DNA of 64,000 nt from Streptomyces sp. NBC_00775 (lineage in GTDB: Bacteria; Actinomycetota; Actinomycetes; Streptomycetales; Streptomycetaceae). How positions within the stretch are numbered: the first letter of the stretch is position 1; the number at the start of each line of letters is the position of its first letter. Position numbers and translations under genes: made by a program. The stretch is from positions 9,858,001-9,922,000 of the forward strand of contig NZ_CP108938.1 of the NCBI RefSeq assembly GCF_036347135.1. Reading direction: 5' to 3'. Shown piece after piece: positions 560 to 40,504 of the stretch. The notes under the pieces are model-generated. The model searched no databases and was not told where the DNA came from. It saw nothing but the letters and a program-made list of their open reading frames with translations.

Positions 560-583
560 ATACGATGACGATCGTAATTTAAA
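560..583. promoter_or_regulatory. 24-bp operator-like inverted repeat, site 1 of 5
   Basis: Left arm ATACGATGA (560-568), 6-nt centre CGATCG, right arm TAATTTAAA (575-583). The right arm and centre match the sites at 16731, 33943, 34226 and 40481; the left arm is the least conserved. A perfect TACGAT-N4-ATCGTA repeat (561-576) overlaps it. It lies between the divergent hydrolase and TetR genes, so this TetR is the obvious candidate ligand. Binding is inference. Confidence 0.55.
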
Positions 584-597
584 AAGTCAAGCCTTTT

Positions 598-613
598 GAT
601 GTCGATCGACATC
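598..613. promoter_or_regulatory. perfect 16-bp palindrome before TetR gene
   Basis: GATGTCGATCGACATC reads the same on both strands. It lies 49 nt before the GTG start at 663 and beside the operator at 560-583, so it is a second candidate autoregulatory site in the divergent promoter. Confidence 0.55.
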
Positions 614-662
614 TATGTACGATTTGACAGTCGACCGTCAACCGAGGAAGGGGTGGCTGATC

Positions 663-1271
663 GTGCGGGTCACCAAGGCGCAGGCGGAGCGCAATCGTGC
701 CCATATCGTCGCGACAGCCGCCAGGCTGTTCCGCGAGCGCGGCTACGACGGTGTCGGTGTGGCGGAACTGATGGCAGCCGCCGGGTTCACCCATGGCGGG
801 TTCTACAAGCACTTCCGCTCCAAGGCCGACCTGATGGCCGAAGCTTCCGCAAGCGGGCTCTCGCAGACCGCGGCACGGACGGAAGGCCTGGACCCCGCCG
901 AGTTCGTCGAGCGCTACGTCTCGCGGGAGCATCGCGACGGGCGCGGTGACGGCTGCACCGTCGCGGCCCTCAGCGGCGACGCCGCCCGTCAGTCAGTGGA
1001 CATCAAAACAGAGTTCGCGGCAGGGATCGAGAACCTGCTGACGGTCCTCCAGGCCCAAAGTGATGCGCCAGGGGATGCGGACCAGGGCGCAGCCCGCGCC
1101 ATGGTGATCGACATGCTCGCCCATTCGGTCGGCGCGGTCATGTTGTCGCGGGCGTGCCCGGACGGTTCTCCGCTGGCGGACGAAATCCTCGATGTCTGCC
1201 GCAAGGGAATTCTCGCGTCACTGACGCACGGCAACAGCGACCAGTCGGAGGCGCGGGGCCCGGGAGCCTGA
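663..1271 (+). CDS. TetR family regulator (GC-motif C-terminal type)
   Basis: This 202-residue protein has an N-terminal helix-turn-helix (about residues 8-52; RGYDGVGVAELM, then FYKHFRSK) and a ligand domain with the signature EHRDGRGDGC. The same signature is found in the TetRs at 13662, 24375, 25090 and 35240. The GTG at 663 was chosen because GAGGAAGGGG precedes it at good spacing and the N-terminus then matches relatives; an ATG at 615 would add 16 unconserved residues. It probably represses the divergent hydrolase and itself through the repeats at 560-613, and perhaps the other copies of that site. Confidence 0.9.
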   Translation: MRVTKAQAERNRAHIVATAARLFRERGYDGVGVAELMAAAGFTHGGFYKHFRSKADLMAEASASGLSQTAARTEGLDPAEFVERYVSREHRDGRGDGCTVAALSGDAARQSVDIKTEFAAGIENLLTVLQAQSDAPGDADQGAARAMVIDMLAHSVGAVMLSRACPDGSPLADEILDVCRKGILASLTHGNSDQSEARGPGA

Positions 1272-1361
1272 CCGCAGCCGACCGATGCGACCCAATCACG
1301 CGATGGTCGGATAGTGACGCAAAGTGGCTGCGGTTCCGAGCCGTTGATGAGGCGGGGAGAC

Positions 1362-1417
1362 GCGGCCGTTCTTCACGCTTCGAGATGTCGAGTAACGAAG
1401 TGCGAGAGAACGGCCGC
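1362..1417. repeat. inverted repeat, possible terminator
   Basis: GCGGCCGTTCT (1362-1372) pairs perfectly with AGAACGGCCGC (1407-1417), and an inner CTTCG/CGAAG pair (1378-1382/1396-1400) extends the stem; a TTT follows. It lies about 90 nt after the TetR stop, so it could be a terminator or an end of a lost mobile element. The rest of 1272-1520 shows no gene. Confidence 0.4.
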
Positions 1418-1459
1418 TTTAGTGAGTGTCCCCGTCGAGGTGTCCAGAGGTGAGGCGTT

Positions 1460-1475
1460 GGGGTTGCTGTCCCGC
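1460..1475. repeat. 16-mer also present at 33991
   Basis: GGGGTTGCTGTCCCGC occurs here and, identical, at 33991-34006, both in non-coding DNA. Flanks differ. It may be a scrap of a common element or chance. Confidence 0.35.
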
Positions 1476-1520
1476 TTTCGGCTCGCTACGACTCCCACTA
1501 CGCCCGCGCGGGCGCGCTGG

Positions 1521-1691
1521 TCAGGGCCGGGTGGAGGTGTCGATGGCGGCCGAGCATCGGCCTGGACGCGGCGCAATGCACGCGGCCCTGGAGCAGGGCT
1601 GGATGGTCTTGCCGGGTTGCGCGGCGCGGATCGCGGCGGCGTACCCGCTGGGGCAGGCGCCGAAGGCGACGTCTTCGTCATGCGTGCTCAT
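1521..1691 (-). pseudogene. short relic resembling the N-terminus of a lipoamide-dehydrogenase-type flavoprotein
   Basis: This is a 56-codon frame with a GGGGG ribosome site 7 nt before its ATG. Residues 9-27 (VAFGACPSGYAAAIRAAQP) resemble the FAD-binding start of lipoamide dehydrogenase-like proteins (usual form GxGxGGYxAAIRAAQLG), but the glycines are degraded and the frame ends after 56 residues, where a normal protein has about 460. It lies just downstream of the TetR gene at 1742 on the same strand. It could also be a chance small ORF. Confidence 0.3.
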
Positions 1692-1741
1692 GAGGTGCCC
1701 CCTTTCCCGGGTGTTCGATGGTTGGCTCGTGGAGCGAGTGG

Positions 1742-2365: not shown

Positions 2366-2389
2366 GGGGACCTCCCTTGACAAGAATTC

Positions 2390-2416: not shown

Positions 2417-2513
2417 GGATTGATTGAGCGGGGCGAGGCCCCGGATGTCGCGCCGGGTTGTCGGTCCAGTCTCAGGCCTGGATAAATAGGACAAATATTA
2501 GGAGTGGCGCCCC

Positions 2514-3509: not shown

Positions 3510-3558
3510 CCCGCCGCAACCGCGACGGGCGACACACAGCACACGAGGAGAATCCGTC

Positions 3559-13661: not shown

Positions 13662-14240
13662 TCAGGACTCCGGTTCAATGCCCTGTGACGCAGTCAGGGC
13701 CTTGTGGGTCGATTCCAAGATCTTCTCCGACAGTTCTGTGCCCGCCGTGGCCCGGGCGAGCAGGATCGCGCCGACCAGAGTGGCCACCATGGGGAGGCCG
13801 TCGTTGGCGTCGGTGGACAGCCATGCGGCGAATGCCTGGACTCCGGTTGCGTACGTTTCGCGCACCTCCCCGGCTATGGGCTCGCGAGCCATGTCGCCTG
13901 CGAAGCCCGCGGTGGGACAACCGGTGCCGGGCTGGTCACGGTGCTCGGCCGACAGGTAGAAGTCGATGAGGGCGGCGCGCGCGGTGTCGTGATCGCCGTG
14001 GTCCGTGTCGAACCCCGCCAGGAGTACGTCCAGGTCCCCGAAACCGGCTTGAGCCGCCTCGGCCACCAGCGCCTCCTTGGACGGGAACTGCTTGTAGAAG
14101 CCGCCCGTGGTCAGCCCGATGGACTTCATCAGGTCGGCGACGCTGATGCCGTTCACGCCGCGTTCCCGGAACAGCTGGGAGGCCGCGGCGACCGCGCGCC
14201 TGCGGTTCTCGAGCGCTTGTGCCTGCGAAACCCGACTCAT
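13662..14240 (-). CDS. TetR family regulator (GC-motif C-terminal type)
   Basis: This 192-residue protein has an HTH at about 8-52 (RGVNGISVADLMKSIGLTTGGFYK) and the C-terminal signature EHRDQPGTGC shared with TetRs at 663, 24375, 25090 and 35240. The ATG at 14240 follows GGCAGGTGAG; a GTG one codon upstream is less likely. It is divergent from the SDR gene at 14510. The 270-bp region between them holds two copies of TAGAT-N10-ATCTA, the probable operators. Confidence 0.92.
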   Translation of the reverse strand: MSRVSQAQALENRRRAVAAASQLFRERGVNGISVADLMKSIGLTTGGFYKQFPSKEALVAEAAQAGFGDLDVLLAGFDTDHGDHDTARAALIDFYLSAEHRDQPGTGCPTAGFAGDMAREPIAGEVRETYATGVQAFAAWLSTDANDGLPMVATLVGAILLARATAGTELSEKILESTHKALTASQGIEPES

Positions 14241-14257
14241 CACTCACCTGCCCACGT

Positions 14258-14277: not shown

Positions 14278-14426
14278 TCGTACGCGAAGTGGCGGGCGGC
14301 AGGCCGCGACGCCCTCTTCCCGTACGGCGCTTTCTCGCACTGCTGCACGGCGGGGAGCCTGTGGATCCGCTTCGGTCTCCGGTCGCGGGCGGTAGTTGGT
14401 GGGATCGCGGGCCGTTGACCGGAGTT

Positions 14427-14452
14427 CTTTAGATAGCTATCGTAATCTAAAG
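14427..14452. promoter_or_regulatory. operator-like repeat CTTTAGAT-N10-ATCTAAAG, copy 2
   Basis: Perfect 8-bp arms (14427-14434 and 14445-14452) with a 10-nt spacer that starts AGCTATC; GATAGCTATC (14432-14441) is a nested palindrome. The TAGAT-N10-ATCTA core is the same as in copy 1 at 14258. It lies 57 nt before the SDR start. Confidence 0.65.
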
Positions 14453-14509
14453 CGGGCCGACGCTCTGGCCCCTCTACTCATCCGCCAGCCAAGAAATGAG
14501 ATCCCTCCC

Positions 14510-15301
14510 ATGACCACGCAGAACAAGACCGCTGTCGTCACCGGCGCGTCCGCCGGCCTGGGTGCCGCTTACGCGCAGCGGCTTGCCGACCGGGGTTACG
14601 ACCTGATCCTGGTGGCCCGCAACGCTGCGCGGCTGGAGACGCTGGCGTCGGACATCCGCAGCCGCACGGGCCGTGCGGTGGACGTCGTCACCGCCGACCT
14701 CACCGATGCGGCGCAGATCTCCGTGGTCGAGGAGCGTCTGCGCACCGACGAGAGCATCGAGGTACTGATCAACAACGCCGGAGGGGGGCTGTTCACGCCG
14801 CTGGCGACCTCCGACGCCGCGGCCTCCGAGGCGCTGATCAACCTCAACGTGACCTCGCTGACCAGGCTGACCACCGCGGTCCTGCCGGGTCTGACGGCCC
14901 GCGGGCACGGCACCGTGGTGAACATCTCCTCTGCGCTGGCTCTCAACATCCTGCCCGTCAGCGCCGTCTACAGCGGCACCAAGAGCTACGTGCTGACGTT
15001 CACCCAGGCCCTGCAGCAGGAGCTCGCCGAGAGCCCCGTCGTGGTGCAGGCCGTGCTGCCGGGCGCTGTCCGCACGGAGTTCTGGGACGGCTCCGGCGCC
15101 GACCTCGGGGCGTTCCCCGATGAGTGGATCATGAGCGCGGACGACGTCGTCGCCGCGGCGCTCGCCGGCCTCGACGCCGGGGAGCCCGTCACCATTCCGT
15201 CACTGCCCCAGATCAGCGACTGGGAGTCGTTCGAGAAGGCGCGTCAGACGCTCGTCCCGAACCTGTCGCTGCGGGTCCCCGCCGATCGCTACCGCGGCTG
15301 A
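14510..15301 (+). CDS. SDR family oxidoreductase
   Basis: This 263-residue classical SDR has TGASAGLG at residues 11-18, NNAG near 91, a Ser in NISSA and the pair in YSGTK. The ATG at 14510 was chosen because the cofactor strand starts ten residues later; the frame opens at 14396 upstream of the operator. It forms a divergent pair with the TetR at 13662, its likely repressor. The 290-nt stretch to the next gene (15302-15591) shows nothing recognisable. Confidence 0.93.
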   Translation: MTTQNKTAVVTGASAGLGAAYAQRLADRGYDLILVARNAARLETLASDIRSRTGRAVDVVTADLTDAAQISVVEERLRTDESIEVLINNAGGGLFTPLATSDAAASEALINLNVTSLTRLTTAVLPGLTARGHGTVVNISSALALNILPVSAVYSGTKSYVLTFTQALQQELAESPVVVQAVLPGAVRTEFWDGSGADLGAFPDEWIMSADDVVAAALAGLDAGEPVTIPSLPQISDWESFEKARQTLVPNLSLRVPADRYRG

Positions 15302-16730: not shown

Positions 16731-16754
16731 ATAACATTATGGTCATAAGTTAAT
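16731..16754. promoter_or_regulatory. 24-bp operator-like inverted repeat, site 2 of 5
   Basis: Left arm ATAACATTA (16731-16739), centre TGGTCA, right arm TAAGTTAAT (16746-16754). The inner core TTATG-N2-CATAA is a perfect dyad. It lies 88 nt before the SnoaL-like gene at 16842. Confidence 0.6.
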
Positions 16755-19555: not shown

Positions 19556-20023
19556 TCAGGACCGGAGGCGGGCGCCCTTCCCCAGCCGGGCGGTGACTTC
19601 ACGGGGGGTGAGGGGGGAGTGGTCCGCGGAGCATTCGACGACGACGCGGACCGGAGCGTCGCAGTCGGTGTGACGGACGTCCAGGACAGGCCCCTCCGGA
19701 CCGAGGGCGTATGCCTCGCCCCACTGGGTCAGTGCCATCAGGACGGGCCACAAGTCCCAGCCCTTGCGGGTCAGGCGGTATTCGTTGCGGGGGCGGCTGC
19801 CGGGCTCCCGGTAGGGGGCGGTCTTCAGGATGCCGGCCGAGGTCAGCTTGCGGAGGCGGTCGCTGAGCACGGCTTCCGAGAGGCCGATGTGGCGGTGGAA
19901 GTCGTCGAAGCGGCGGACGCCATTGACGGCGTCACGCAGGATCAGCAGCGTCCATTTCTCCCCGATCGCATCGAGCGTGCGCTGGACGGGGCAGTTCTCG
20001 GTGCTCGCCTCAAGCCACTCCAT
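19556..20023 (-). CDS. HxlR family regulator
   Basis: This 155-residue winged-helix protein has the family opening CPVQRTLDAIGEKWTLLILRD and the core FHRHIGLSEAVLSDRLRKL, then TRKGWDLWPVLMALTQWGE. It is divergent from the PaaI-type thioesterase gene at 20128, with AAGC-N3-GCTT (20074-20084) and the palindrome GTCAGCTGAC (20095-20104) between them. It probably controls that thioesterase. Confidence 0.9.
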   Translation of the reverse strand: MEWLEASTENCPVQRTLDAIGEKWTLLILRDAVNGVRRFDDFHRHIGLSEAVLSDRLRKLTSAGILKTAPYREPGSRPRNEYRLTRKGWDLWPVLMALTQWGEAYALGPEGPVLDVRHTDCDAPVRVVVECSADHSPLTPREVTARLGKGARLRS

Positions 20024-22060: not shown

Positions 22061-22173
22061 ACCCTGGCGTGAGCAGGTAACCCTGTCCGTCGGCGCTGGG
22101 CGTACTGGCGAACCGAACCCCACATTTCCCGGACCCTTTCCGGATCAACGGGCGTGACCACTTGCCATTGGCT

Positions 22174-22194
22174 TACGACCGACATATGGTCGTA
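22174..22194. promoter_or_regulatory. inverted repeat TACGACC-N7-GGTCGTA before SDR gene
   Basis: Perfect 7-bp arms (22174-22180, 22188-22194), followed by several CGTA-rich half-sites up to about 22233. It lies 62 nt before the SDR at 22256. The half-site TTACGACC also occurs inside the operator at 33943, so a related regulator is possible. Confidence 0.5.
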
Positions 22195-22255
22195 CGAACG
22201 TAAGGCAAACGGCCGTAAGGTATACGGGCGTACGCCAATATCAAGGGAGCTCGTG

Positions 22256-24374: not shown

Positions 24375-24950
24375 GTGCGGTACCCGAAAGAACACAAACA
24401 CCAGACACGGCAGCGGATCGTCACGACGGCCGGCCGCCGGCTCAAGCGCAACGGCATCGACGGCTCGGGAGTCGCGACCCTCATGAAGGACGCGGGCCTG
24501 ACGGGCGGCACCTTCTACGCCTACTTCACTTCCAAGGACGACCTCGTCGCCACCGCCGTCGCCGACCAGATGCGCGCACAGCACGAGAACATCGTCGCGC
24601 AGGCGGCACCCGGTCGCGCCGGACTCGAGCAGATGATCCGCTGGTACTTCTCCACCGAGCAGCGCGACAGCATCGAGGACGGCTGCCCCAACGCCGCCCT
24701 CCTCGACGAGATCGCACGCTCCACGGACGCAACCCGGCAGGCCTACACCGACGGCGCGCTGACCCTCATCGACGGCTTCGCCGCCCGCCTGGCACCCCAC
24801 GACCCGCCCTTGGCACGCCTGAAGTCACTCAGCCTCCTCGGCATGATGGCAGGCACCCTGCAACTCTCCCGCGCCCTGACCGACCGGCAACTCGCCGACC
24901 AACTCCTCGAACAGGGCATCCGCAACGCCCTCGCACTGATAGACGCCTGA
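24375..24950 (+). CDS. TetR family regulator, tandem paralogue of 25090
   Basis: This 191-residue protein has an HTH with GIDGSGVATLMKDAGLTGGTF and YAYFTSKDDL, and the effector signature EQRDSIEDGCPNAALLDEI. It starts at GTG after GGAGGAACAGA. Its neighbour at 25090 is alignable along the whole length, so the two arose by tandem duplication. The hairpin at 24335 separates it from the SMP-30 gene. Confidence 0.92.
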   Translation: MRYPKEHKHQTRQRIVTTAGRRLKRNGIDGSGVATLMKDAGLTGGTFYAYFTSKDDLVATAVADQMRAQHENIVAQAAPGRAGLEQMIRWYFSTEQRDSIEDGCPNAALLDEIARSTDATRQAYTDGALTLIDGFAARLAPHDPPLARLKSLSLLGMMAGTLQLSRALTDRQLADQLLEQGIRNALALIDA

Positions 24951-25025
24951 CAGCGCAACCACTGAAGAAGCCCACACGCTCGCTCGCCCGTCGCCTCTGC
25001 CGACTCTTTGGATTACGTTTGCAAT

Positions 25026-25038
25026 ACCATAGAATGGT
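25026..25038. promoter_or_regulatory. dyad ACCAT-N3-ATGGT before TetR gene
   Basis: A short inverted repeat in an AT-rich patch, 52 nt before the TetR start at 25090; candidate operator or promoter-overlapping site. Confidence 0.4.
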
Positions 25039-25089: not shown

Positions 25090-25680
25090 GTGGTGCGGTA
25101 CGGAAAAGAGCACAAGTCGGAGACCAGGCGGCGGATCATCGAGACAGCGGGCCGCCGGTTCAAGCAAGACGGTATCGACGGCTCCGGGGTCTCGACGCTC
25201 ATGAAGGACGCGGGGCTGACCAATGGGGCCTTCTATGCTCACTTCGCATCCAAGGATGATCTCGTCACCACGGCCATCGCCGACCAGTTGAAAGTGCAGG
25301 CCGAGAGCGTCGTCGCGCTGGCCGAGCCCGGCCGTGCCGGACTCGAGCAGATAGTGCGGGGGTACCTTTCCCCCCAGCACCGCGAGAGGCTCGGCGACGG
25401 CTGCCCCAACGCCGCTCTGCTCGACGAGATCGGGCGCTGCACCGAGACGACCAGGCAGGCGTACACCGACGGTGTGCTGATCCTTGTCGAGGGCATTGCC
25501 GCCCGCATGGCGCCCGAGGCCCCGTCCTCCGCACGCGTGAAGGCGCTCAGTCTCCTCGGCATGATGGCCGGGACATTGCAGCTGTCCCGCGCCTTGACCG
25601 ACAGTCGACTCGCCGACGAGCTCCTCGATCAGGGGGTGGACAACGCCCTCACCGTACTGGACGCCTGGCAGCGTGTCTGA
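25090..25680 (+). CDS. TetR family regulator, tandem paralogue of 24375
   Basis: This 196-residue protein shares VRYxKEHKxxTR, GIDGSG, TLMKDAGLT, SKDDL and GDGCPNAALLDEI with the TetR at 24375, and much of this with the one at 35240. AAGGAG lies 8 nt before GTG 25090; the next codon, GTG 25093, may be the true start judging from the paralogue. The frameshifted PaaI gene follows after 115 nt in the same direction, perhaps its old target. Confidence 0.92.
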   Translation: MVRYGKEHKSETRRRIIETAGRRFKQDGIDGSGVSTLMKDAGLTNGAFYAHFASKDDLVTTAIADQLKVQAESVVALAEPGRAGLEQIVRGYLSPQHRERLGDGCPNAALLDEIGRCTETTRQAYTDGVLILVEGIAARMAPEAPSSARVKALSLLGMMAGTLQLSRALTDSRLADELLDQGVDNALTVLDAWQRV

Positions 25681-29360: not shown

Positions 29361-30080
29361 AGACGCAGATCACCCCTCGCCCCCGACGGACCCGAGGCCC
29401 TCAAGGCGTTCGGTGTCGCCTGGTGCCAGCAGTACCCGGACACCGAGTACGACATCAAGCGGGTCATCTCCGAGGGCGACCTGGTGCTCCTGCACTCCAA
29501 CGTCGTCACGGCTCCTGGTGCCTGCGGGATCGCCGCCTTCGACATCTTCCGCTTCCAGGACGGGAAGATCGCCGAGCACTGGGACATCTTTCAGGAGGTG
29601 CCGGCGACCACGGCCAACGGCAACGACATGTTCTCCACCCTCAGCCGGCCGCAGACCGAGGCGCCGGAGCAGCGGTGGTTCAGCGCCTACAACAAGAAGC
29701 TCGTCACCGCCTTCGTCGACCAGCTCATGGTCCGCAAGGACCTGGCCGCCTTCGACACCTACGTGGCCCCCGAGTATCACCAGCACAACCCGAACATTCC
29801 TGACGGCGTGGCAGGCGCGAAGGCCGCACTGGGCGCGTACTTGGAGCAGTTCCCGCAGCTGAGCGTGGAGCCGAAGCGGGCCATCGCCGAGGGCGATCTG
29901 CTGGCAGTCCACAGCCACCACGTCTACACACCGGGCGAGCGGGGCCGGGCGGTCCTCGACCTCTTCCGGGTCAGGGGCCGTAGCGGTCGCGTTACGACCC
30001 TTGGGACGCGCGCGTGGGTTCATGTCCCGCACGGCCACGGTGATCACTGGTCGGGCCCGGCGGCCTGGTTGCGCTCATGA
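29357..30080 (+). pseudogene. two-domain SnoaL-like protein, N-terminus deleted
   Basis: A GTG at 29357 overlaps the MDR stop and follows GGGAGG, but only about five codons (VKTQI) follow in that frame. The family sequence resumes in the next frame: APDGPEALKAFGVAWCQQYP, IAAFDIFRFQDGKIAEHWD, then a second NTF2-like half with YHQHNPNIPDGVAGAKAALG. About 35-40 residues of the first half are missing and the tail after LDLFRVRG is also unlike the family. An internal deletion probably killed it. Confidence 0.7.
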
Positions 30081-31322
30081 CCCGCCTCGCTTGGCGCGGA
30101 ACGAGGTGCGCCCGTTGCGCCGCACCATGGCGATGGTGGCGGCAAGACTGCCGCGATCCGGGTCGGGGAGCAGGCCGTTCCCGAGGCGATGTATCTGGTC
30201 GGTGTGCCAGCTGATGTCCAGTACCCCGTCCAGGACCTTGAGGTCGGCGATTCTGCCCAGCAGGGCTCTCATGCCGTAGCGCACCTGATGTGCCGTGAGT
30301 GTCTCGGCCCGCCCTTCCAGGACGAGCCGGGCCGCGTCCGGCGTGGTGATTGTCGGCCGGCCGATGCCGACCACGTCGCATTCGCCGGCCTGTACGGCTC
30401 GCTGCATGGCATCGCCGGTGCGGAATCCGCCGGTGACGGCGAGGGGGATGTCGCCCACGAGTCGGCGAACCGTGCGGGCGTATTCGAGGAAGTACGCCTC
30501 GCGTGCCCTGGTGCTGGGGGCCGCCGAGCCGCTCATTGCCATGGACTCGTAACTACCGCCGCTGACCTCGATGAGGTCGACGCCTTCGTGGGCGAGCGCG
30601 GCCAGCACGGCCTGGGACTCGTCCTCGGTGAATCCGCCCCGCTGGAAGTCCGCCGAGTTGAGTTTGATGCCCACGGCGAAGCCTGGCCTGACGCGGCCGC
30701 GGATGCGGCGGACGACCTCGAGGCCGAAACGCATCCGTCCCTCGAGATCGCCGCCCCAGCCGTCCTCGCGCCGGTTCGACAGCGGGGACAGGAACTGCGA
30801 GATGAGATATCCGTGGGCCCCTTGCACCTGTACGCCGTTGAAGCCGGCTGTCTCGCACACGGCCGCGGCCGTGGCGAAGCGCTCGATGATCTCCTCGATC
30901 TCCGCCGGTCGCAGTTCGCGCGGTGTCCTGGCTCCGGGCAGTTTCGTCGGGATCGGGCTGGGGGCCACCGGCGTGTGTCCGAGTGCCAAGGGATTGGCCT
31001 GGCGCCCGGGGTGGTTGAGCTGTGCCCAGATCGCACCGCCCGAGTCCTGGGCCGACTTGGCCCAGCGCGAGAGCGCGTCGAGATCACGTTCGTCCTCGAT
31101 GACGATGTTGCCCGGTTCACCGAGCTGTGCGCGATCGACCATGACGTTGCCGGTGATCATCAGGCCGTAGCCGCCTCGGCTCCATGTGGAGTACAGACGG
31201 ACGAGGCGCTCGTCGGGTGCGTTGTTCTTGTCCCCGAGCGCCTCGCTGAGTGCCGACTTCATCAGGCGGTTGGCCAGTATCCGGCCGTTCGGGAGGGTGA
31301 GGGGGGTGTCCAGCGTATTCAT
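30075..31322 (-). CDS. NADH:flavin oxidoreductase, Old Yellow Enzyme family
   Basis: This 415-residue FMN TIM-barrel protein has NRLMKSALSE at the start, GNVMVD, WAQLNHPGRQ, VQGAHGYLISQFLSPLSNRR with the substrate-binding His, and IGRPTITTPD near the phosphate site. It is longer than the enzyme at 15592 and of another subfamily (2-enoate or cyclohexenone reductase-like). It is the last gene of a minus-strand operon (hydrolase 33809, amidase 32872, this gene), 80 nt after the amidase. Confidence 0.93.
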   Translation of the reverse strand: MNTLDTPLTLPNGRILANRLMKSALSEALGDKNNAPDERLVRLYSTWSRGGYGLMITGNVMVDRAQLGEPGNIVIEDERDLDALSRWAKSAQDSGGAIWAQLNHPGRQANPLALGHTPVAPSPIPTKLPGARTPRELRPAEIEEIIERFATAAAVCETAGFNGVQVQGAHGYLISQFLSPLSNRREDGWGGDLEGRMRFGLEVVRRIRGRVRPGFAVGIKLNSADFQRGGFTEDESQAVLAALAHEGVDLIEVSGGSYESMAMSGSAAPSTRAREAYFLEYARTVRRLVGDIPLAVTGGFRTGDAMQRAVQAGECDVVGIGRPTITTPDAARLVLEGRAETLTAHQVRYGMRALLGRIADLKVLDGVLDISWHTDQIHRLGNGLLPDPDRGSLAATIAMVRRNGRTSFRAKRGGS

Positions 31323-31402
31323 CCGGGCTCTTCTTCTGTGTGGTCGGCGCCGGCCGGGTTTGCCTGCGGGCCGGGGTCAGGGGAGTGGGGGTCGGCGGAC
31401 CG

Positions 31403-32872
31403 TCAGATGAAGGCCGGAGGGGGCTGGTAGCCCTCGAGTTCTCGGCCGAGGAGCTCGGCGAACTTGATGGTGGTGAGGTCGCCTCCGCTCGGGCCCATCA
31501 CCTGGAGCCCGACAGGCAGACCGTCGCGGCTCGTTCGCACCGGGACGGTCGTCGCCGGAGAGCCGGCCACGTTGGCGATGGCGCTCCACTTGACCTGGTC
31601 CCAGTAGGGGCGAGACCGGTCGTCGACCTGGATCCGGCGTCCGAATCTGTCGATCGGTTTGTTGTGATGAGGCGGTGCCGCGGTCGGTGTGACCGGCATG
31701 AGGAGGACGTCGAAGTCCCGGAAGAACTCGGTCCAGCGCTGCCGTAGCTCATGGCGTGCGACGTCCGCCTGGAGCCAGCTGTAGTGGGTCTGGAAGGTTC
31801 CTCGCAAGGCGTACAAAGCCTCCCCCCGAGGATGCTGGGCGAGACGCGCGAGGAGGGCGGTGTTGGAGGCCGCTGTCAGTCCGGACCGGTCATAGGTGAA
31901 CGCGCCGAAGAGCAGGCGCAGGAAGATGTCATGACTGGTCGCCATGTCACCGGGGAGCGCGGAGGGCCGCGACTCGACCTTCGCGCCGGCCAACTTGAGG
32001 GCGCTCAGAGCGTCGTCCATCGCTGCGGCGACGTCGTGGTCGACAGGGCACGACGCGTCCTCGGGCCACACCGCGACCCGGAAGCCGCTCAGCTCGCTCG
32101 CCCTGGGTGGTGCGAGGGTGTAGCTGAAACCGCCGTCGCGCTCGGGCGGTCCCACCGTCGCGTGGAGGACAGGGACCAGGTCGCGCGCCTCGCGCACCTG
32201 GGCGCCCGCACAGGCGAGGTCGATCTCCCCCCACCGTCCGACACCCGGTCCGCCCGGCACATGCCCGATGAGAGGGATGGACCGCCAGGTGGCCTTGTGC
32301 CCGTAGAGGCCGTTGAAGTGTGCCGGGATCCGGGTGGAGCCGCCGATTTCGGAGCCGAAGTCGAGAGCCGTCAGCCCTGCGGCCGTGGCCACGGCGCCAC
32401 CGCCTGCGGAGCCTCCGGACGTGCGGGCGGTGTTCCATGGGTTCAGCGTCGGTCCGAACACCGGGTTGTCCGCCTGGACGTCCTGGTTCCCCGCGGGCAT
32501 GTTGGTCTTGCCGATGATCACCGCACCTGCGGAACGCAGCCGTCGTACCGCCTCGGCGTCCTGGTTGGGCACGTAGTCCTTGAGATCGGTCCGACCACAG
32601 ACGGTCCGCAGTCCCGCGGTCTCGTAGCTGTCCTTCAGCGTGATCGGCAGACCGTGCAGCGGGCCGAGTTTCGCCCCGCTCGTGCGTTTCGCGTCGGCAT
32701 CCCTGGCCGCGCTCCGAGCCCGTTCGACGTCGAGGGTGACGATCGCGTTGAGCGTCTCGTTGTGGGCGTCGATGCGGCTCAGGTAGGCGTCGAACAGTTC
32801 CTCACTTGACACCTTCCCCGAGGCCAGTGCGCCCAACTGGTCCGCGGCTGACTGGAACGGGAGGTCACGCAC
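31403..32872 (-). CDS. amidase signature family enzyme
   Basis: This 489-residue amidase has an intact Ser-cisSer-Lys triad by position: Lys80 in ITLKDS, cis-Ser155 in SGGSAGG, and nucleophile Ser179 in EIGGSTRIPA, exactly 24 residues after Ser155 as the family requires. The usual GGSSGG reads GGSAGG, which leaves the catalytic serine in place. The GTG at 32872 is chosen because the family start follows it. It is the middle gene of the hydrolase-amidase-OYE operon, 67 nt after the hydrolase stop. Substrate unknown. Confidence 0.93.
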   Translation of the reverse strand: MRDLPFQSAADQLGALASGKVSSEELFDAYLSRIDAHNETLNAIVTLDVERARSAARDADAKRTSGAKLGPLHGLPITLKDSYETAGLRTVCGRTDLKDYVPNQDAEAVRRLRSAGAVIIGKTNMPAGNQDVQADNPVFGPTLNPWNTARTSGGSAGGGAVATAAGLTALDFGSEIGGSTRIPAHFNGLYGHKATWRSIPLIGHVPGGPGVGRWGEIDLACAGAQVREARDLVPVLHATVGPPERDGGFSYTLAPPRASELSGFRVAVWPEDASCPVDHDVAAAMDDALSALKLAGAKVESRPSALPGDMATSHDIFLRLLFGAFTYDRSGLTAASNTALLARLAQHPRGEALYALRGTFQTHYSWLQADVARHELRQRWTEFFRDFDVLLMPVTPTAAPPHHNKPIDRFGRRIQVDDRSRPYWDQVKWSAIANVAGSPATTVPVRTSRDGLPVGLQVMGPSGGDLTTIKFAELLGRELEGYQPPPAFI

Positions 32873-32939
32873 GGAGAGCCTCGTTTCTGTATGCGCTGAT
32901 TCGGCGGGCTTGTAGGCGAGTGAGAGGGCGGCATCAAGC

Positions 32940-33809
32940 TCAGGACTCGAGGAACCCGAGCGCCCTGGCGACGAAGTCCTCGTGGTTCTGGAAGATCCCC
33001 CCATGGCCGGAATCGGGGTAGAGGGGGACAAGCTCGCTCTTGGGCAGGCGAGCGGCCAGGTCGATGGTGTTCCGGCTGGGCACCATCCGGTCGTTCTCGC
33101 CGTTGGCCACGAGGACCGGTTGGCGCACTGCCGACAGGTCTGACGGTGCCTGGCGGCCCCATCGTCTGATGGCCTTCATCTGGGCGCGGACCGACGTCAG
33201 CGAGATGTCCTGGTCGCGGTCGTCCGTACGCTCCTCCAGCCGCCGCAGGAAGGCGCGTCCTGCTCTTTGGCCGCTTGCGGTGGCGGTGAAGAAGAGAGAG
33301 AGCTTCGGATCCTGGCGGGTCAGGGCGCCCTTGATCGTGGCCTGAACGGCCAGGGCCGGGACCTTGTCGATGCCGGGGCCGCCGGCGGGGCCGGTGCCCG
33401 CGAGGATGACCTTGCGGACGAGGTGCGGTTCTTCCGCCGCGATGACCTGGGCGACGAAGCCGCCCATCGACAGACCGAACAGATCGACCTGGTCGAAGCC
33501 GAGGGCGCGGATGAACCGCACCGCGTCGTGGGCCATCCCTTCGATCGTGTCCGGCGTGGAGCCGCCCGACCCGCCCACCCCGCGGTTCCCGAAGGTGATC
33601 ACCCGACGCCGTGCGGCGAGTCCGTCGACGATGCTCGGGTCCCAGTTGTCCAGGTTTCCGGCCAGGTGGATCAGGAGAACCAGCGGCACGCCGTCCTCGG
33701 GGCCGAGTTCGCGGTAGGCAAAGGTCACCCCGTCGACGGACACGGAGCGGGTCGGCGCGTTCTTGTACGACGATCGTGAGGGGGACGGAGAATTGCGCGG
33801 TGCGCTCAT
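32940..33809 (-). CDS. alpha/beta hydrolase
   Basis: This 289-residue serine hydrolase matches those at 3559 and 34367 (SYKNAPTRSVSVDGVTFAYR, NWDPSIVD, LFGLSMGGFVAQ with the nucleophile Ser, NGENDRMVPS, YPDSGHGGIFQ). The ATG at 33809 is the only start close to the family N-terminus. It is the first gene of the operon with the amidase and the OYE. An operator copy (33943-33966) lies 134 nt upstream. Confidence 0.93.
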   Translation of the reverse strand: MSAPRNSPSPSRSSYKNAPTRSVSVDGVTFAYRELGPEDGVPLVLLIHLAGNLDNWDPSIVDGLAARRRVITFGNRGVGGSGGSTPDTIEGMAHDAVRFIRALGFDQVDLFGLSMGGFVAQVIAAEEPHLVRKVILAGTGPAGGPGIDKVPALAVQATIKGALTRQDPKLSLFFTATASGQRAGRAFLRRLEERTDDRDQDISLTSVRAQMKAIRRWGRQAPSDLSAVRQPVLVANGENDRMVPSRNTIDLAARLPKSELVPLYPDSGHGGIFQNHEDFVARALGFLES

Positions 33810-33942
33810 GGCCAGGTCTTTCAAGTAGGTGGAGCGAGTCGACGAGTGTGCTGTTCGTCCCGGGCTTCCCCCGCGGCGGAAAGTGCGGGCGGCCTTACCT
33901 CGCGTCGTGGATGCCCGTGTGATCGACACCAGGCTTCCGCAA

Positions 33943-33966
33943 ATTGAATTACGACCATCATTCTAT
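33943..33966. promoter_or_regulatory. 24-bp operator-like inverted repeat, site 3 of 5
   Basis: Left arm ATTGAATTA (33943-33951), centre CGACCA, right arm TCATTCTAT (33958-33966). The left arm is identical to site 5 at 40481. It stands upstream of the hydrolase-amidase-OYE operon. The rest of the 557-nt gap 33810-34366 holds site 4 and the 16-mer repeat, and no gene. Confidence 0.6.
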
Positions 33967-33990
33967 GTGGCTGGCCGACGGGCCGCAAGC

Positions 33991-34006
33991 GGGGTTGCTG
34001 TCCCGC
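33991..34006. repeat. 16-mer also present at 1460
   Basis: GGGGTTGCTGTCCCGC is identical to 1460-1475. Both copies lie in gene-free DNA within a few hundred nt of one of the 24-bp operator or hydrolase genes. Confidence 0.35.
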
Positions 34007-34225
34007 ACGCGCCATGCCCCACGGTCGGCGGCCCTCATGGCGTGATGCCCTCGTCGCTCCAGGGTCTCGCCGGTGTCACCCCCTGCGCTCCGTGCCGGCG
34101 TCGGTCGCGCCGGTTGTGCTGGAGGCGGGACATGGTCATGGCGCAAGGTCGGGTCGGCGGTGGATGTATCCCGGCGGCGTGACCTCATGTGCGACGTGAT
34201 GTGCGGCGTACCTCTCGTGAGGCCC

Positions 34226-34249
34226 ATTAAAGTATGGGCATAATTCAAT
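34226..34249. promoter_or_regulatory. 24-bp operator-like inverted repeat, site 4 of 5
   Basis: Left arm ATTAAAGTA (34226-34234), centre TGGGCA, right arm TAATTCAAT (34241-34249). The right arm is the exact complement of the left arm of sites 3 and 5. It is 118 nt before the hydrolase at 34367. Confidence 0.6.
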
Positions 34250-34366
34250 GGTCGGTGTGATGCTGAAGGGCTCAACCGGACAGGGTTCCGACCCTGCGGG
34301 CCTTCTGTCGTCGTCCGAGTCCGGATCGCAGTCGCGGTCCGGAACCCCACGCAGAAGGGCACGGCC

Positions 34367-35233
34367 GTGAGCGACGCACAGGGAGTACGAGGCGACGTGG
34401 TGACGTCGTACCGGAAGGCGCCCACCCGCACCCTCACCGCCGGGGGAGTGACCTTCGCCTACCGCGACCTCGGCCCGAGGACCGGCGTCCCGGTGGTCTT
34501 CATCACCCACCTCTCCGCCGTCCTGGACAACTGGGACCCCCGAGTCGTCGACGGCATCGCCGCCAGGCATCGCGTCATCACCTTCGACAACAGGGGCGTC
34601 GGCGCATCCAGCGGCTCGACACCGAAGGCCATCGAAGAGATGGCGAAGGACGCCGTCACCTTCATCCGGGGACTCGGGCTCGACCATGTCGACATTCACG
34701 GCTTCTCGATGGGCGGCATGATCGCCCAGGTGATCGCGCAGAACGAACCGCAGCTCGTCCGCAGGCTGATCCTCACGGGCACCGGCCCCGCGGGCGGTGA
34801 GGGCATCAAGAAGGTGACCCGACTGTCCCATCTCGACACCGTCCGGGCCCTGCTCACCCTCCAGGACCCGAAGCAGTTCCTCTTCTTCACCCGCACCGCG
34901 GGCGGGCGGCGAGCCGGAAAGCAGTTCCTGGCCCGGCTCAAGGAGCGCACTCACGACCGCGACAAGGCGATCTCCCTCACGTCGTACTTCGCCCAGCTCA
35001 AGGCCATCCACCGCTGGGGGCTCGCGCAGCCCCAGGACCTCTCCGTCATCCATCAGCCCGTGTTCGTCGCCAACGGTGACAACGACAGGATGGTGCCGAC
35101 GAAGAACTCGTTCGAACTGGCCAGGCGACTGCCGAACGCCGACCTGGTCGTCTACCCCGACGCAGGCCACGGAGGCATCTTCCAGTTCCACGAGCAGTTC
35201 GTGGCGGAAGTCCTCGACTTCCTTGAGCGGTAG
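34367..35233 (+). CDS. alpha/beta hydrolase
   Basis: This 288-residue protein aligns end to end with the hydrolase at 3559: same SYRKAPTRTLTAGGVTFAYR opening, HGFSMGG elbow with Ser114 at the same position, NGDNDRMVP acid and GHGGIFQFH histidine. The GTG start follows AAGGGC at 9 nt. It is divergent from the 33809 operon with two operator copies in between, and convergent with the TetR at 35240 (6 nt gap). Confidence 0.93.
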   Translation: MSDAQGVRGDVVTSYRKAPTRTLTAGGVTFAYRDLGPRTGVPVVFITHLSAVLDNWDPRVVDGIAARHRVITFDNRGVGASSGSTPKAIEEMAKDAVTFIRGLGLDHVDIHGFSMGGMIAQVIAQNEPQLVRRLILTGTGPAGGEGIKKVTRLSHLDTVRALLTLQDPKQFLFFTRTAGGRRAGKQFLARLKERTHDRDKAISLTSYFAQLKAIHRWGLAQPQDLSVIHQPVFVANGDNDRMVPTKNSFELARRLPNADLVVYPDAGHGGIFQFHEQFVAEVLDFLER

Positions 35234-35239
35234 TGGGTG

Positions 35240-35986
35240 TCAGGTGCGGGCGGGCGGCGCATTTGGCCGGGAGTGCTCATAGGCGGACACCCGGAAGCGT
35301 CCTCGCATCCGGGCTCGAGTCGATGCCTTCGCGCACCGCTCGCCGGAAGCCGTCCTCGGACCGCGGCCCTCGTTGCGGCGCGGTAGTGCGTCTCGGTCGA
35401 TGAACGTGCGAGCGTTCTCGACTCCCCGCTCGAGGACCTCGTCGGCGAACGCGCGGTCGGCTAGGGCGCGGGACGGCTGCAGCGTCCCCACCATCATAGT
35501 GAAGAGCCCGATGGCTCTGCCGCGAGCGGCCTGTGGATCCGGGGGCGCCAGGCGGGCGGCGATCTCTTCCATGATGGCCGTCGCGCCCTCGGTGTACGCC
35601 TGCTTGGTGCCGTCCGTGCTTCGGCCGATCTCGTCGAGCAGTGCGGCGGAGGGGCATCCGGTGCCGGGCCGGTCACGGTGCTCGGGTGACAGATAGCCGC
35701 GAACGAAGTCCTCGAGTCCCTCTTGGCCGGGCCTCAGCGTGTCGCACCGATCCGCCAGTGTGCGCAGTTCATGGGCGACGACGTGGGCGACGAGGTCGTC
35801 CTTGGAGGCGAAGTGGGCGTAGAACGCTCCATTGGTGAGCCCGGCGTCCGCCATCAGCGTGGAGATGCCCGAGCCGTCGATGCCGTCCTGCTTGAATCGG
35901 TGGCCGGCCCTCTCGATGATCCGTTGCCATACAGGCCGAGCCCCAGTCGATGGTCTGACGTCCGTAATATCACGCCCGTGAGGCAA
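35240..35986 (-). CDS. TetR family regulator with atypical ends
   Basis: The core (HRFKQDGIDGSGISTLMADA, FYAHFASKDDL, EHRDRPGTGCPSAALLDEI) closely matches the TetR at 25090. Both ends differ: the normal VRYxKEHKxxTR start is absent, the only in-frame start is a TTG at 35986, and about 45 low-complexity residues follow the usual C-terminus. The gene may be damaged at one or both ends, but its HTH is whole. Its stop is 6 nt from that of the hydrolase at 34367. Confidence 0.75.
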   Translation of the reverse strand: MPHGRDITDVRPSTGARPVWQRIIERAGHRFKQDGIDGSGISTLMADAGLTNGAFYAHFASKDDLVAHVVAHELRTLADRCDTLRPGQEGLEDFVRGYLSPEHRDRPGTGCPSAALLDEIGRSTDGTKQAYTEGATAIMEEIAARLAPPDPQAARGRAIGLFTMMVGTLQPSRALADRAFADEVLERGVENARTFIDRDALPRRNEGRGPRTASGERCAKASTRARMRGRFRVSAYEHSRPNAPPART

Positions 35987-36014
35987 TGATTTGTTGTCGG
36001 TCGCTGAGTCTCTG

Positions 36015-36026
36015 AAAGTAAACTCA
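36015..36026. promoter_or_regulatory. conserved 12-mer before HxlR gene
   Basis: AAAGTAAACTCA lies 20 nt before the ATG at 36046 and is identical at 13111-13122 before the decayed copy. Its survival next to a degraded gene supports common origin; it may include the promoter or the HxlR binding site. Confidence 0.45.
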
Positions 36027-36045
36027 AGCGGCTAGAATCGTTCTC

Positions 36046-36555
36046 ATGGATGCGTGGACCGAAGTTCTCCAAGACACCGGCATGGACCCCCGGCTCGACC
36101 GGGACACGTCGAACTGCTCGATCGCGCGGACCCTTGAGGTCGTCGGGGAGAAGTGGACGATCCTGATCTTGCGTGAGGTCTGGTACGGCTCGTCCCGCTT
36201 CAGTGAGTTCGAACGGGTCCTCGGCTGTCCTCGCAACCTGCTCGCGGCACGGCTTCGGATGCTGGTGGAGGAAGGGATCCTGGCCACCGAGACCTACAAG
36301 GAGCCGGGCTCGCGGAGTCGGCCGAAGTACGTGATCACGTCCAAGGGTTTGGATCTGGTACCGGCCGTGATGGGGCTGCTGCAGTGGGGTGACCGCTACC
36401 GTGCCGACCCGGAGGGGCCGGCGGTCCTGGCGCGGCATCGCGAGTGCGGTGCCCACGTCGACGTCCAGATCCGCTGCGAACAGGGCCATCCGGTGCAGGC
36501 GAAGGACATCGAGAGCGTCCCCGGCCCGGCTTTTCGGTTGAGGTCGCCCGAGTGA
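36046..36555 (+). CDS. HxlR family regulator
   Basis: This 169-residue winged-helix protein has CSIARTLEVVGEKWTILILRE, RFSEFERVLGCPRNLLAARL, TSKGLDLVPAVMGLLQWGDR and a C-terminal Cys/His pair (HRECG, CEQGH) that could hold a metal or sense thiol stress. An internal ATG at 36082 is an alternative start. It is convergent with the CGNR gene (16 nt gap). A decayed copy of this pair is at 13.1-13.6 kb. Confidence 0.92.
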   Translation: MDAWTEVLQDTGMDPRLDRDTSNCSIARTLEVVGEKWTILILREVWYGSSRFSEFERVLGCPRNLLAARLRMLVEEGILATETYKEPGSRSRPKYVITSKGLDLVPAVMGLLQWGDRYRADPEGPAVLARHRECGAHVDVQIRCEQGHPVQAKDIESVPGPAFRLRSPE

Positions 36556-38132: not shown

Positions 38133-38168
38133 GGGGCGGCCCCGCAGTAACCGGCTGAGCCGCCCCTC
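38131..38168. terminator. 10-bp hairpin between convergent hydrolase and MFS genes
   Basis: GAGGGGCGGC (38131-38140) pairs with GCCGCCCCTC (38159-38168). It overlaps the hydrolase stop and lies just before the MFS stop at 38179, so it can end transcription from both sides. Confidence 0.7.
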
Positions 38169-38178
38169 GGTCCTGGGC

Positions 38179-39630
38179 TCAGGTCACGACCGTGACACCA
38201 GGCGGAGTATCTCCCACTGCAAAGCCGGCGGCAGGGCCGTCGGCCTTGCGCTGCCGGGGCATCAGCAACGCCACAGCCGCCGCCAGGGCGACCGCACCGG
38301 CCCCGACCCAGAGCGCCGGGATCAACCCGTCCACGAACAGTGAGGCGGATCCGTAGCCACCCTGGGCGGAGAAGACCGCGGCCAGTGAGGCGACGCCGAT
38401 GGCGCCGCCGACTTCGCGGATCGCGTTGTTGGCGCCGGAGGCGATGCCCTGCTCCTCCGGGCGGACCGTGCTCAGGACGAGGTTGGCGCTGGGGGCGAAG
38501 AACATGCCGAGGCCGATGCCGGAGACGATCAGTGCGGGCAGCATGTGGGTGTAGGCCTCGTGCGGCTCGACGGTGAGTGCCCAGAGCCCGAGGCCGACGG
38601 CGTTCAGGGCCATGCCCGCCGTGACGACGGGTGCCCCCCCGATGCGGTCGGACAGTGCCCCGGCCAGCGGTCCGGCGATCATGGGCATGGCGGTCCAGGG
38701 CAGCATCCGTATGCCGGCCTGCATGGGTGAGTAGCCGCCGACGGTCTGCAGGTACTGGCTGAGCAGGAAGATCGACCCGAACATGCCCAGCAACATCAGC
38801 AGGCTGGCGGCGTTGATGGCGCTGAAGGAGCGGTGTCGGAAGAGGCGCATCGGCAGCATCGGGTGCTTGGCGCGCAGTTCGTAGAGGACGAACCCGACGA
38901 GCAGGGCGGCACCGGCGAAGAAGCCGCCCAGCACCGGGGTGCTGCTCCAGCCGTCGGCGTTGCCGCGCACCAGGGCGTAGACGATGCCGAACAGACCGCC
39001 GCTGGCCAGAACGGTGCCGACGAGGTCGAGGGTCGGGTTCGGGCCGCGGCTCTCCTTCAGCCGCAGCAGGGCGAAGGGGATCAGCGCCAGGCCGAGGGGC
39101 ACGTTCACCCAGAAGATCCACTGCCAGGAGAGGTTTTCGGTGAGTGCGCCGCCGATGAGCGGTCCGGTGGCGACGGCAATGCCACTGGCCGCGCCCCAGA
39201 CACCCAGGGCCGCGCCGCGTCGTGCGGCGGGGACGGCGGCCGACAGCAGGGTGAGCGTCAGCGGCGTCACGATCGCGGACCCGACGCCCTGCGCCGCCCG
39301 CGCGGCGATCAGCTCACCCATCCCCGGTGCGAGTGCGGCCGCGGCCGAGGCCGTGGTGAAGATCCCGAGCCCGATGGCGAACAGTCTCCGGCGGCCGAAG
39401 CGGTCACCGAGGGAAGCGCCGAACATGAGCAGGACGGCGAAGGTGAGGGTGTAGGCGCTGACCGTCCATTCGAGGTCCTCCAGACCGCCGCCGAGGTCCT
39501 CGCGGATGGAGGGCAGGGCGGTGGTGACGATCAGGTTGTCCAGCGCGGTGATGAATCCGGCCGCGCTGGTGATGACCACGGCCCAGACGGCGGAGCCGCC
39601 TCGAACCGGTTGCTTACTGTGCTGTTTCAT
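38179..39630 (-). CDS. MFS multidrug transporter, 14-helix DHA2 type
   Basis: This 483-residue membrane protein looks like EmrB/QacA antiporters: motif D1 region LDNLIVTTALPSI in helix 1, motif A GASLGDRFGRRRLF, motif C GIAVATGPLIGGAL. About 14 hydrophobic segments can be counted. It probably exports a toxic compound by proton antiport. It follows the SDR at 39759 after 128 nt in the same direction, so both may answer to operator site 5. Confidence 0.93.
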   Translation of the reverse strand: MKQHSKQPVRGGSAVWAVVITSAAGFITALDNLIVTTALPSIREDLGGGLEDLEWTVSAYTLTFAVLLMFGASLGDRFGRRRLFAIGLGIFTTASAAAALAPGMGELIAARAAQGVGSAIVTPLTLTLLSAAVPAARRGAALGVWGAASGIAVATGPLIGGALTENLSWQWIFWVNVPLGLALIPFALLRLKESRGPNPTLDLVGTVLASGGLFGIVYALVRGNADGWSSTPVLGGFFAGAALLVGFVLYELRAKHPMLPMRLFRHRSFSAINAASLLMLLGMFGSIFLLSQYLQTVGGYSPMQAGIRMLPWTAMPMIAGPLAGALSDRIGGAPVVTAGMALNAVGLGLWALTVEPHEAYTHMLPALIVSGIGLGMFFAPSANLVLSTVRPEEQGIASGANNAIREVGGAIGVASLAAVFSAQGGYGSASLFVDGLIPALWVGAGAVALAAAVALLMPRQRKADGPAAGFAVGDTPPGVTVVT

Positions 39631-39758
39631 GGCGTTCCCTGGGCAGACGTACTGGGCGATGGATCAATGACGTGAAGGCCGGCGGGCGACGGCACGGGGG
39701 AAGCGACAGCGAGCACCGGCATCCGCCGCATTGGGGGCGGATCGCTGGGCGGCTGCTC

Positions 39759-40457
39759 TCAGGGGAGCTGCGGGTAGAGCGCGGAGACGCCTCCGGCCAG
39801 TGCGGCCTGCGCTTGGCGTGAGGCGTCGTCCGCGACGATCTCGTAGGCGCCGTTGGCGATGCCGTCGACGGCGATCCGGGCGATGTCGGTGGGGTCGGAC
39901 TTGGGCGCGTCGACGGCTCGGACCATGTCGGTGTCCATGTAGCCGACGTGCAGGCCGGCCACGCGGATGCCCTGGTCGGCGAGCTGCAGGCGCAGGGCGT
40001 TGGTGAGCGACCACTCGGCGGACTTGGCGGCACAGTAGGCGCCGAAGTCCGGGAAGCTGACCCAGGACAGGCCGGACAGGACGTTCAGGATCGCCCCGCC
40101 GCCGTTGGCTGCGATCTGGGGTGCGAAGGCGCGGGTCACCGAGAGGGTGCCGAAGTAGTGGGTGTCCATCTCCAGGCGGACGGCGTCCAGGTCGGCGGTC
40201 AGCAGGTCGGCGCCGGTGGACGACCCCGCGTTGTTGACCAGGACCGTGACATTGCCGGTGGCCTCGGCGGCGGCCGCGACGGAGGCGGGGTCGGTGATGT
40301 CGAGCGCGATCGGCTTGGCGCCGGGCAGGTCGACCTGGTCGGGGTTGCGGGCGCCGGCGTAGACGGTGGCGCCGCGGCTGAGCAGTTCGGCGGCGAGGGC
40401 CCGGCCGAATCCCCGGTTGGCTCCGGTGACAAGGACGGTGCTGGTGGAGAGGTCCAT
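39759..40457 (-). CDS. SDR family oxidoreductase
   Basis: This 232-residue short SDR has TGANRGFG near residue 11, NNAG near 76, and the catalytic pair in YCAAK. Lacking the longer C-terminal loop, it resembles the SDR at 6760 (shared ALDIT/ALDVT, ...GYxDTxM and a common ALYPQL-like end). GGAACCTCC precedes the ATG (ribosome site AGGAACC). Operator site 5 lies 24 nt upstream. First gene of a probable SDR-MFS operon. Confidence 0.92.
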   Translation of the reverse strand: MDLSTSTVLVTGANRGFGRALAAELLSRGATVYAGARNPDQVDLPGAKPIALDITDPASVAAAAEATGNVTVLVNNAGSSTGADLLTADLDAVRLEMDTHYFGTLSVTRAFAPQIAANGGGAILNVLSGLSWVSFPDFGAYCAAKSAEWSLTNALRLQLADQGIRVAGLHVGYMDTDMVRAVDAPKSDPTDIARIAVDGIANGAYEIVADDASRQAQAALAGGVSALYPQLP

Positions 40458-40480
40458 GGAGGTTCCTGGTGAAGTGGATT

Positions 40481-40504
40481 ATTGAATTACGATCATAATT
40501 TAAA
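40481..40504. promoter_or_regulatory. 24-bp operator-like inverted repeat, site 5 of 5
   Basis: Left arm ATTGAATTA (40481-40489), centre CGATCA, right arm TAATTTAAA (40496-40504). The left arm equals that of site 3 and the right arm equals that of site 1. It is 24 nt before the SDR start, where a bound repressor would cover the promoter. Confidence 0.65.

Follow-up and report, generated by a model that had tools for sequence, protein, structure and literature searches.

A recurrent 24-bp operator and paralogous TetR-family genes as candidate partners at dispersed enzyme units of Streptomyces sp. NBC_00775

Different TetR-family regulators can share operators, as is described in PMC7480387 for the gamma-butyrolactone receptors and pseudo-receptors SfbR/SfbR2, ScbR/ScbR2 and AvaR1-3, which share ARE operators. 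Here, we analyzed a 64,000-nucleotide stretch of Streptomyces sp. NBC_00775 (contig NZ_CP108938.1, positions 9,858,001 to 9,922,000; hereafter the window, numbered from its first letter) in which a 24-bp pseudo-palindrome recurs at 560-583, 16731-16754, 33943-33966, 34226-34249 and 40481-40504. Five TetR genes of a single group lie in the same window; we call them A (663-1271, plus strand), D (13662-14243, minus), B3 (24375-24950, plus), B2 (25093-25680, plus) and C (35240-35986, minus). With a probability that we put at roughly 0.68, the 24-bp sites are operators of these paralogous repressors, and those at the enzyme genes would most likely be read by the B/C branch.

The gamma-butyrolactone networks are the nearest published kind. 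As in those networks (PMC7480387), there is more than one TetR paralog per cluster, several promoters carry an AT-rich dyad operator, those of the regulators themselves among them, and the sites would be shared between TetRs. Unlike in those networks, the targets are hydrolases, dehydrogenases, flavin reductases and efflux rather than signal or antibiotic synthesis. Operator sequence and family score do not fit either. Identity with the ARE (AAACVGNNBVNNCSGTTT) was rejected, as the five sites show 6-7 mismatches over 14 informative columns and random 36-mers from the window a mean of 5.6; membership in the ScbR family (NF041196) was also rejected, with A, B2, C and D scoring 34.7-55.9 bits, in the N-terminal part, against a cut-off of 150.

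A second point of comparison is NemR of Escherichia coli (nemR-nemA-gloA), likewise a TetR repressor, whose target NemA is an old yellow enzyme (OYE); two OYE genes (Pfam PF00724) lie in the present cluster, OYE-b downstream of the 33943 site. A, B and C are 23-27% identical to NemR over 119-130 aa, and D gave a 48-aa match only. Cys106 of NemR aligns with a Cys that is invariant in ten members of one alignment, and the corresponding stretch carries a GC pair in 75 of 77 TetR rows (a set that leaves out matches below 170 bits, L090 and L091 included, and the duplicate L092). Lys175, the partner of Cys106 in the NemR thiol switch (NemR chemistry after PMC7464077), aligns by eye with Arg in six members. 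Because the cysteine is kept but the lysine is replaced, electrophilic or quinone-like compounds as the signal are only a guess.

Among solved structures, the best match was PDB 2fd5 of Pseudomonas aeruginosa, which we take to be PA3133; it covers A (E 1.5e-13) and B2 (E 1.9e-18) nearly over their full length and is named only 'transcriptional regulator'. Weak but long NCBIfam matches of 32-40 bits, against cut-offs of 250-300, connect CurR with A and B2, and SACE_7040, a morphogenesis regulator according to PMC3825060, with B2. Neither this operator nor this TetR group was the subject of any paper among the matches listed from the open-licence full-text literature.

The first-pass annotation had proposed that five inverted repeats of one build serve dispersed enzyme units under the TetR at 663 as master. 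All five 24-mers, centres included, were recovered as described, and they are AT-rich islands in GC-rich DNA, with 17-29% GC in the sites and 64-70% in the flanks. The proposed arm consensus holds loosely: by eye, the arms depart from ATTRAATTA/TAATTYAAT at 0-4 positions, most at 560. The dyads are imperfect, with 7, 8, 8, 9 and 9 of 12 base pairs symmetric across the five sites, and the element consists of a core TKAYG-NN-CRTMA with AT-rich arms around it. Scored with a matrix built from all five, the sites reach 34.7-46.2, compared to a maximum of 6.2 in ten Markov-shuffled windows, and when each site was left out in turn, the matrix from the other four ranked it 5, 5, 4, 5 and 1 among all window positions. 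At up to 3 mismatches, the consensus matches four of the five (560 is missed) and nothing in 100 shuffles. The five sites are real and far above chance. The weakest of them is ATACGATGACGATCGTAATTTAAA at 560-583, located between the minus-strand hydrolase gene ABH-e and TetR A; the assignment uses sequence, matrix and its position by A genes.

Scanning the 11.1-Mb genome with a degenerate pattern at up to 3 mismatches returned 9 places, and 0 for the reversed control. Six are in the window (the five plus a variant at 14428-14451), two lie at 10.886-10.889 Mb next to another short-chain dehydrogenase (SDR) gene and a further TetR of the group, the B copy at 10.889 Mb, and one falls within open frames (3,692,281). 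A second pattern at up to 2 mismatches gave 11 places, with a control of 0: the five, two at 10.89 Mb and 4 of different look. The sites are thus nearly confined to this part of the chromosome and one spot 1 Mb off; a near-mode search with 33800-36100 returned no plasmid match. This distribution bears on whether the sites are simply AT-rich promoter elements (-10 regions). Several of them do overlap -10-like hexamers, but the 24-bp dyad symmetry, the GC-containing core, the few genomic places with a reversed control of 0 and the placement of sites by TetR genes render that explanation hardly credible.

Conservation at orthologous promoters strongly supports one operator set that controls dispersed units, which in the first-pass annotation are hydrolase, SnoaL, hydrolase-amidase-OYE and SDR-MFS units downstream of the sites. 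For the alpha/beta hydrolase gene ABH-c (34367-35233, plus strand), we used the best 80 of 133 loci and searched -450 to +30 of the gene at 22 bits or more, using a matrix derived solely from the five sites of the window. A match was found in 45/60 loci after removal of 20 betaproteobacterial and similar ones, two of which have a match (47/80 of all), compared to 0/80 in the coding region, 1/80 downstream and 0/80 in reversed upstream sequence. Beyond Streptomyces, matched loci occur in Actinoallomurus, Streptacidiphilus, Saccharothrix, Actinoplanes, Nonomuraea, Amycolatopsis, Kutzneria, Lentzea and Kribbella, as well as in Solirubrobacter and two Chloroflexi bins. We also drew on a sample of 246 genomes, the strain's own included; genomes are numbered with G and loci with L below, and the two sets overlap (L096 is G239, L126 is G033). 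There, the site at 40481-40504, 24 bp before the minus-strand SDR-d/MFS genes (38179-40457), is matched at SDR-d orthologs of four congeners (G013, G014, G177, G236). The site at 33943-33966, upstream of the minus-strand ABH-b, amidase and OYE-b genes (30075-33929), has counterparts upstream of ABH-b orthologs in G140 and G228, and sites are likewise found upstream of OYE-a orthologs in G014, G040, G104, G189 and G236. The site upstream of SnoaL-a (16731-16754) is retained at the ortholog of one congener (G228), and SDR-b orthologs carry a similar site in G097, G140, G141, G228 and G239. Of 87 sites with at least 24 bits in the congener sequence retrieved, 78 fall outside coding bodies, although such bodies (predicted genes minus their first 120 bp) account for 70% of that sequence. 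With the match kept at orthologous promoters and the controls near zero, the sites look like true regulatory sites.

In several cases the operator overlaps a likely promoter. The site at 34226-34249 lies over the spacer and the -10-like CATAAT of the ABH-c promoter. Across eight aligned ABH-c promoters, the -10-like hexamer, CATAAT or CATACT, comes from the operator's right half; about 17-18 bp before it, seven of the eight have a TTG-type -35, and the window has TCGTGA (hexamers assigned by eye). Over these eight, the operator is 82% identical to that of the window and the remaining region 70%. In the Chloroflexi locus L143, again by eye, the operator overlaps TTGACT-17-TATTAT and, on the opposite strand, TTGACC-18-TATAAT. 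More generally, TTGAC occurs within 16 bp of the site edge in 23 of 207 distinct contexts (not counting sites close to contig ends or contexts that recur), compared to 2 of 207 further out as a distance control, and at 560 the TTGAC of a possible minus-strand promoter abuts the site at an offset of -7. On a site that covers or abuts the core promoter, a bound repressor would block RNA polymerase until a ligand or a thiol modification displaced it.

Two features of these promoters are recorded separately. The ABH-c leader 3' of the operator (34258-34330) is conserved in the eight aligned loci (GTGATGCTGAAGG...CTCAACC...), and Rfam gave no family at gathering score in the window, this leader included. 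Among 39 distinct pairs of neighboring operators separated by at most 350 bp, some of them homologous, 10 have a spacing of 61-63 bp (L051 2082, L061 9829, L086 8810, L120 11581, L127 4621, L128 2895, L129 4534, L130 3915, L131 4345, L136 5908); this spacing, about six helical turns, hints at cooperative or looped binding.

Contrary to the first-pass annotation, 560 is not the only site adjoining a regulator gene. Variants lie by or in further TetR genes of the window: TTTAGATAGCTATCGTAATCTAAA at 14428-14451, by TetR D and SDR-b, is a sixth site found with both the matrix and the degenerate genome pattern; TTTGGATTACGTTTGCAATACCAT at 25007-25030, before the B2 start, is kept in 12/12 B2 genes; and GTGATATTACGGACGTCAGACCAT at 35950-35973, on the minus strand inside the open frame of TetR C, is identified by its position in other C genes. 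For the fifth TetR, B3, a degenerate array of operator cores found with the matrix (22167-22239) stands at the head of the operon, before the SDR-c, NHL-repeat protein and B3 genes. TetR_N matches for the genes at 663, 13662, 25090 and 35240 exceed the curated cut-off (33-55.8 bits vs 24), with E 3.8e-15 for frame 615-1271 of A, whose likely start is GTG 663 by ribosome site and orthologs, and E 3.3e-9 for B2. The TetR_N scan covered A, D, B2 and C; B3 is 69% identical to B2, and the idea that it is broken by an in-frame TGA was rejected, since its translation of 191 aa is intact and the TGA is its normal end.

Operator variants and TetR subtypes are paired across genomes. At 12 bits with the five-site matrix, a site stands directly upstream in 11/11 A, 12/12 B2, 13/13 other B, 16/18 C, 4/7 D and 0/13 B3 genes (74 rows, three fragmentary ones left out), compared to 53 of 1000 random segments of 460 bp from these loci, in which the real sites were kept. 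The tree, also of 74 rows (without rows below 170 aa and L089_C), places D in a clade of 7. The position of the site varies little for A (-100 to -119), for B2 (-82 to -84) and, outside the window, for C (-66 to -92), and varies more for other B genes; for the 17 C genes besides that of the window, the best-scoring place lies 66-92 bp upstream, at 9.9-23.4 bits. In each of the 13 B3 loci, one or more operator cores reach 11 bits in the 4.5 kb upstream of the gene, usually ahead of SDR-c, at a threshold that carries no control, and the listed matches are 15 bp apart in 10 of the 13. The recognition stretch GLTNGAFYAHF is common to B2 and C in the rows listed; one or two residues are changed in B1 and in most B3 rows, and A and D differ.

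Several observations on related arrangements stand beside these counts. Cores in 15-bp steps, two or three units like TAAGGCATACGAACG, are seen at 22167-22239 and in L052, L060, L063, L066 and L074, where such an array precedes the SDR-c operon with TetR B3. Sites like TTTTAATGATGATCGACATTAAAA form another related set near TetRs of 40-45% identity in L090/L091 (G116, G132) and are also present in G027. In the betaproteobacterial/Lysobacter ABH-c relatives L153, L159, L166 and L171, a 34-38% TetR lies about 1.9-2.4 kb off and has a ATATGACGATCATCATA-like core nearby, which may represent a remote version of the TetR-operator pairing described here.

These data allowed us to weigh TetR A against the B/C branch, calling B/C at E up to 1e-35 and A at 75% identity or more in the genome sample, whose protein searches scored 12-13 candidates per genome, such that distant members can escape. 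That A is the master of all five sites draws on the placement of the 560 site 103 bp before its start and at a like place by 11/11 A-type genes examined (window included), on the 560 half TTTAAATTA, which matches half of 40481, and on the motif being present in all 11 sampled A genomes, where the A-adjacent site can itself supply one match. According to PMC3511530, a TetR operator frequently lies by its own gene when a divergent neighbor is within about 200 bp, without this being obligatory; for A, the divergent starts 530 and 663 are 132 bp apart and the site is found between them. TetR A may still bind 560. As a master, however, it is improbable: 560 matches the set least well, A is absent from 43 of the 45 site-bearing ABH-c loci (fetched flanks of up to 6 kb) and from 7 of 17 B/C genomes with at least two sites, and it has a probable operator of its own. 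This perfect 16-bp palindrome, GATGTCGATCGACATC at 598-613, is present at all 11 A loci (9 exact, 2 with one change, window included), and also by the A genes of L120 (S. canus, exact) and L147 (Kribbella, one change), at a 38-bp step from the 24-bp site; the genome has one exact place and one with 1 mismatch. Because the palindrome is conserved, private and single as an exact copy, A appears to be a local autoregulator. With four further group TetRs in the window and A absent from most site-bearing ABH-c loci, the first-pass reading of a shared operator set for dispersed enzyme units stands, and the mastery of the TetR at 663 is not supported.

The distribution of the B/C branch fits the sites more closely. 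Among the 246 genomes, 44 have a strong motif, 33 have B/C TetRs and 27 have both. Nineteen have at least two strong sites, and 17 of these have B/C (G234 counted although one of its two places looks unrelated), 10 of the 17 having A as well; of the two without B/C, G116 has a 45% TetR close by and G191 has an AT-rich contig that also matches the control. The motif and B/C both occur in every one of the 11 sampled A genomes, which makes A and B/C inseparable there. At the ABH-c loci, a B/C TetR (140 bits or more, same flanks) is present in 41/45 with a site and 9/15 without (Fisher p 0.011), and A in 2/45 and 0/15 (Fisher p 1.0, not significant). With only two loci carrying A and a p of 1.0, the case against A is one of absence, not anticorrelation. 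In L141, L142 and L143, from Solirubrobacter and the two Chloroflexi bins, a divergent B-type TetR, the operator and ABH-c form one unit. These loci also speak to whether the sites are read by another regulator, for example the HxlR at 19556, 36046 or 46267: HxlR genes are found again in some clusters and 36046 is about 1.8 kb from 34226, but no HxlR was recognised in the gene lists of L141-L143 (by eye, no family search), and we regard this assignment as highly improbable.

In an overlapping explanation, A and D also act at the enzyme sites: every intact TetR of the group would bind the common core in competition with the others, and the sites would form a shared redundant network with no master. 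Variants of one operator by A, B, C and D genes, together with the gamma-butyrolactone receptors and pseudo-receptors as a precedent (PMC7480387), favor it; the subtype-specific conserved operator variants suggest partly separate specificities, and the recognition stretches of A and D are unlike those of B/C, leaving it unlikely overall.

For the B/C assignment itself, several observations weigh on the other side. Six sampled genomes have B/C without a strong site and 17 a strong site without B/C; L095, L103, L113 and L136 carry the ABH-c site with no B/C TetR in the fetched flanks, nine ABH-c loci with B/C have no upstream site, and no single B or C subtype is found in every genome with an ABH-c site. 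The best-kept stretch of the eight aligned ABH-c promoters lies at the start codon (96%), not at the operator. The operator of B2 itself is among the more divergent (18.8 bits with the five-site matrix), and the specificity of B2 may for that reason be narrower. Finally, TetR C of the window lacks the ribosome site, start and first codons of two relatives and holds the operator inside its remaining frame, and is therefore probably inactive; its C-terminal tail is also unlike that of relatives. Because C has lost its 5' end, B2, B3 or the B copy at 10.889 Mb are left as the candidate readers in this strain.

With the B/C branch at the enzyme sites, 16731, 33943, 34226 and 40481 would be bound by B2 (a leading candidate by B/C distribution), B3 or the 10.889-Mb B copy, and A and D would be local regulators with their own variants, A also using its private 16-bp palindrome. 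From the sequences we infer repression, cross-binding, the assignment of proteins to sites and the signal; together, the paralogous repressors would form a network blocking hydrolase, dehydrogenase, flavin-reductase and efflux promoters. A broader scenario, to which we give somewhat less than even odds, sees here a patchy multi-repressor detoxification or catabolic island derived from one multiplied ancestral TetR-operator-hydrolase unit, in which at least four paralogs with operator variants of their own (24-bp sites, 15-bp-step arrays, pairs 61-63 bp apart) would jointly gate the promoters and different chemicals would open different subsets.

The site-linked genes of the window encode alpha/beta hydrolases, an amidase, OYE flavin reductases, short-chain dehydrogenases, a SnoaL-like protein and an MFS transporter, and relatives of zinc-type dehydrogenases are site-linked in some congeners; judged from these annotations, the regulon would be a catabolic or detoxifying set. 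ABH-c is PcaD-like by a match below cut-off. ABH-e (1-530, minus strand; Pfam Abhydrolase_1, likely start ATG 530) runs off the window, and all 11 sites annotated with ABH-e also adjoin TetR A. SDR-b (14396-15301, plus strand) probably has its true start downstream, and SnoaL-a likely starts at ATG 16842 rather than GTG 16755 (by eye). Three HxlR-type regulator genes of the window (19556, 36046, 46267) share clusters with the TetRs.

The analysis thereby gathers functionally unassigned enzyme genes from actinobacteria and two Chloroflexi bins into a single predicted regulon, for which an operator is named and repressors are proposed as candidates. Since variants of operator and TetR co-occur in many genomes, they also offer a natural data set on the divergence of paralogous repressors and operators that remain within one cluster.

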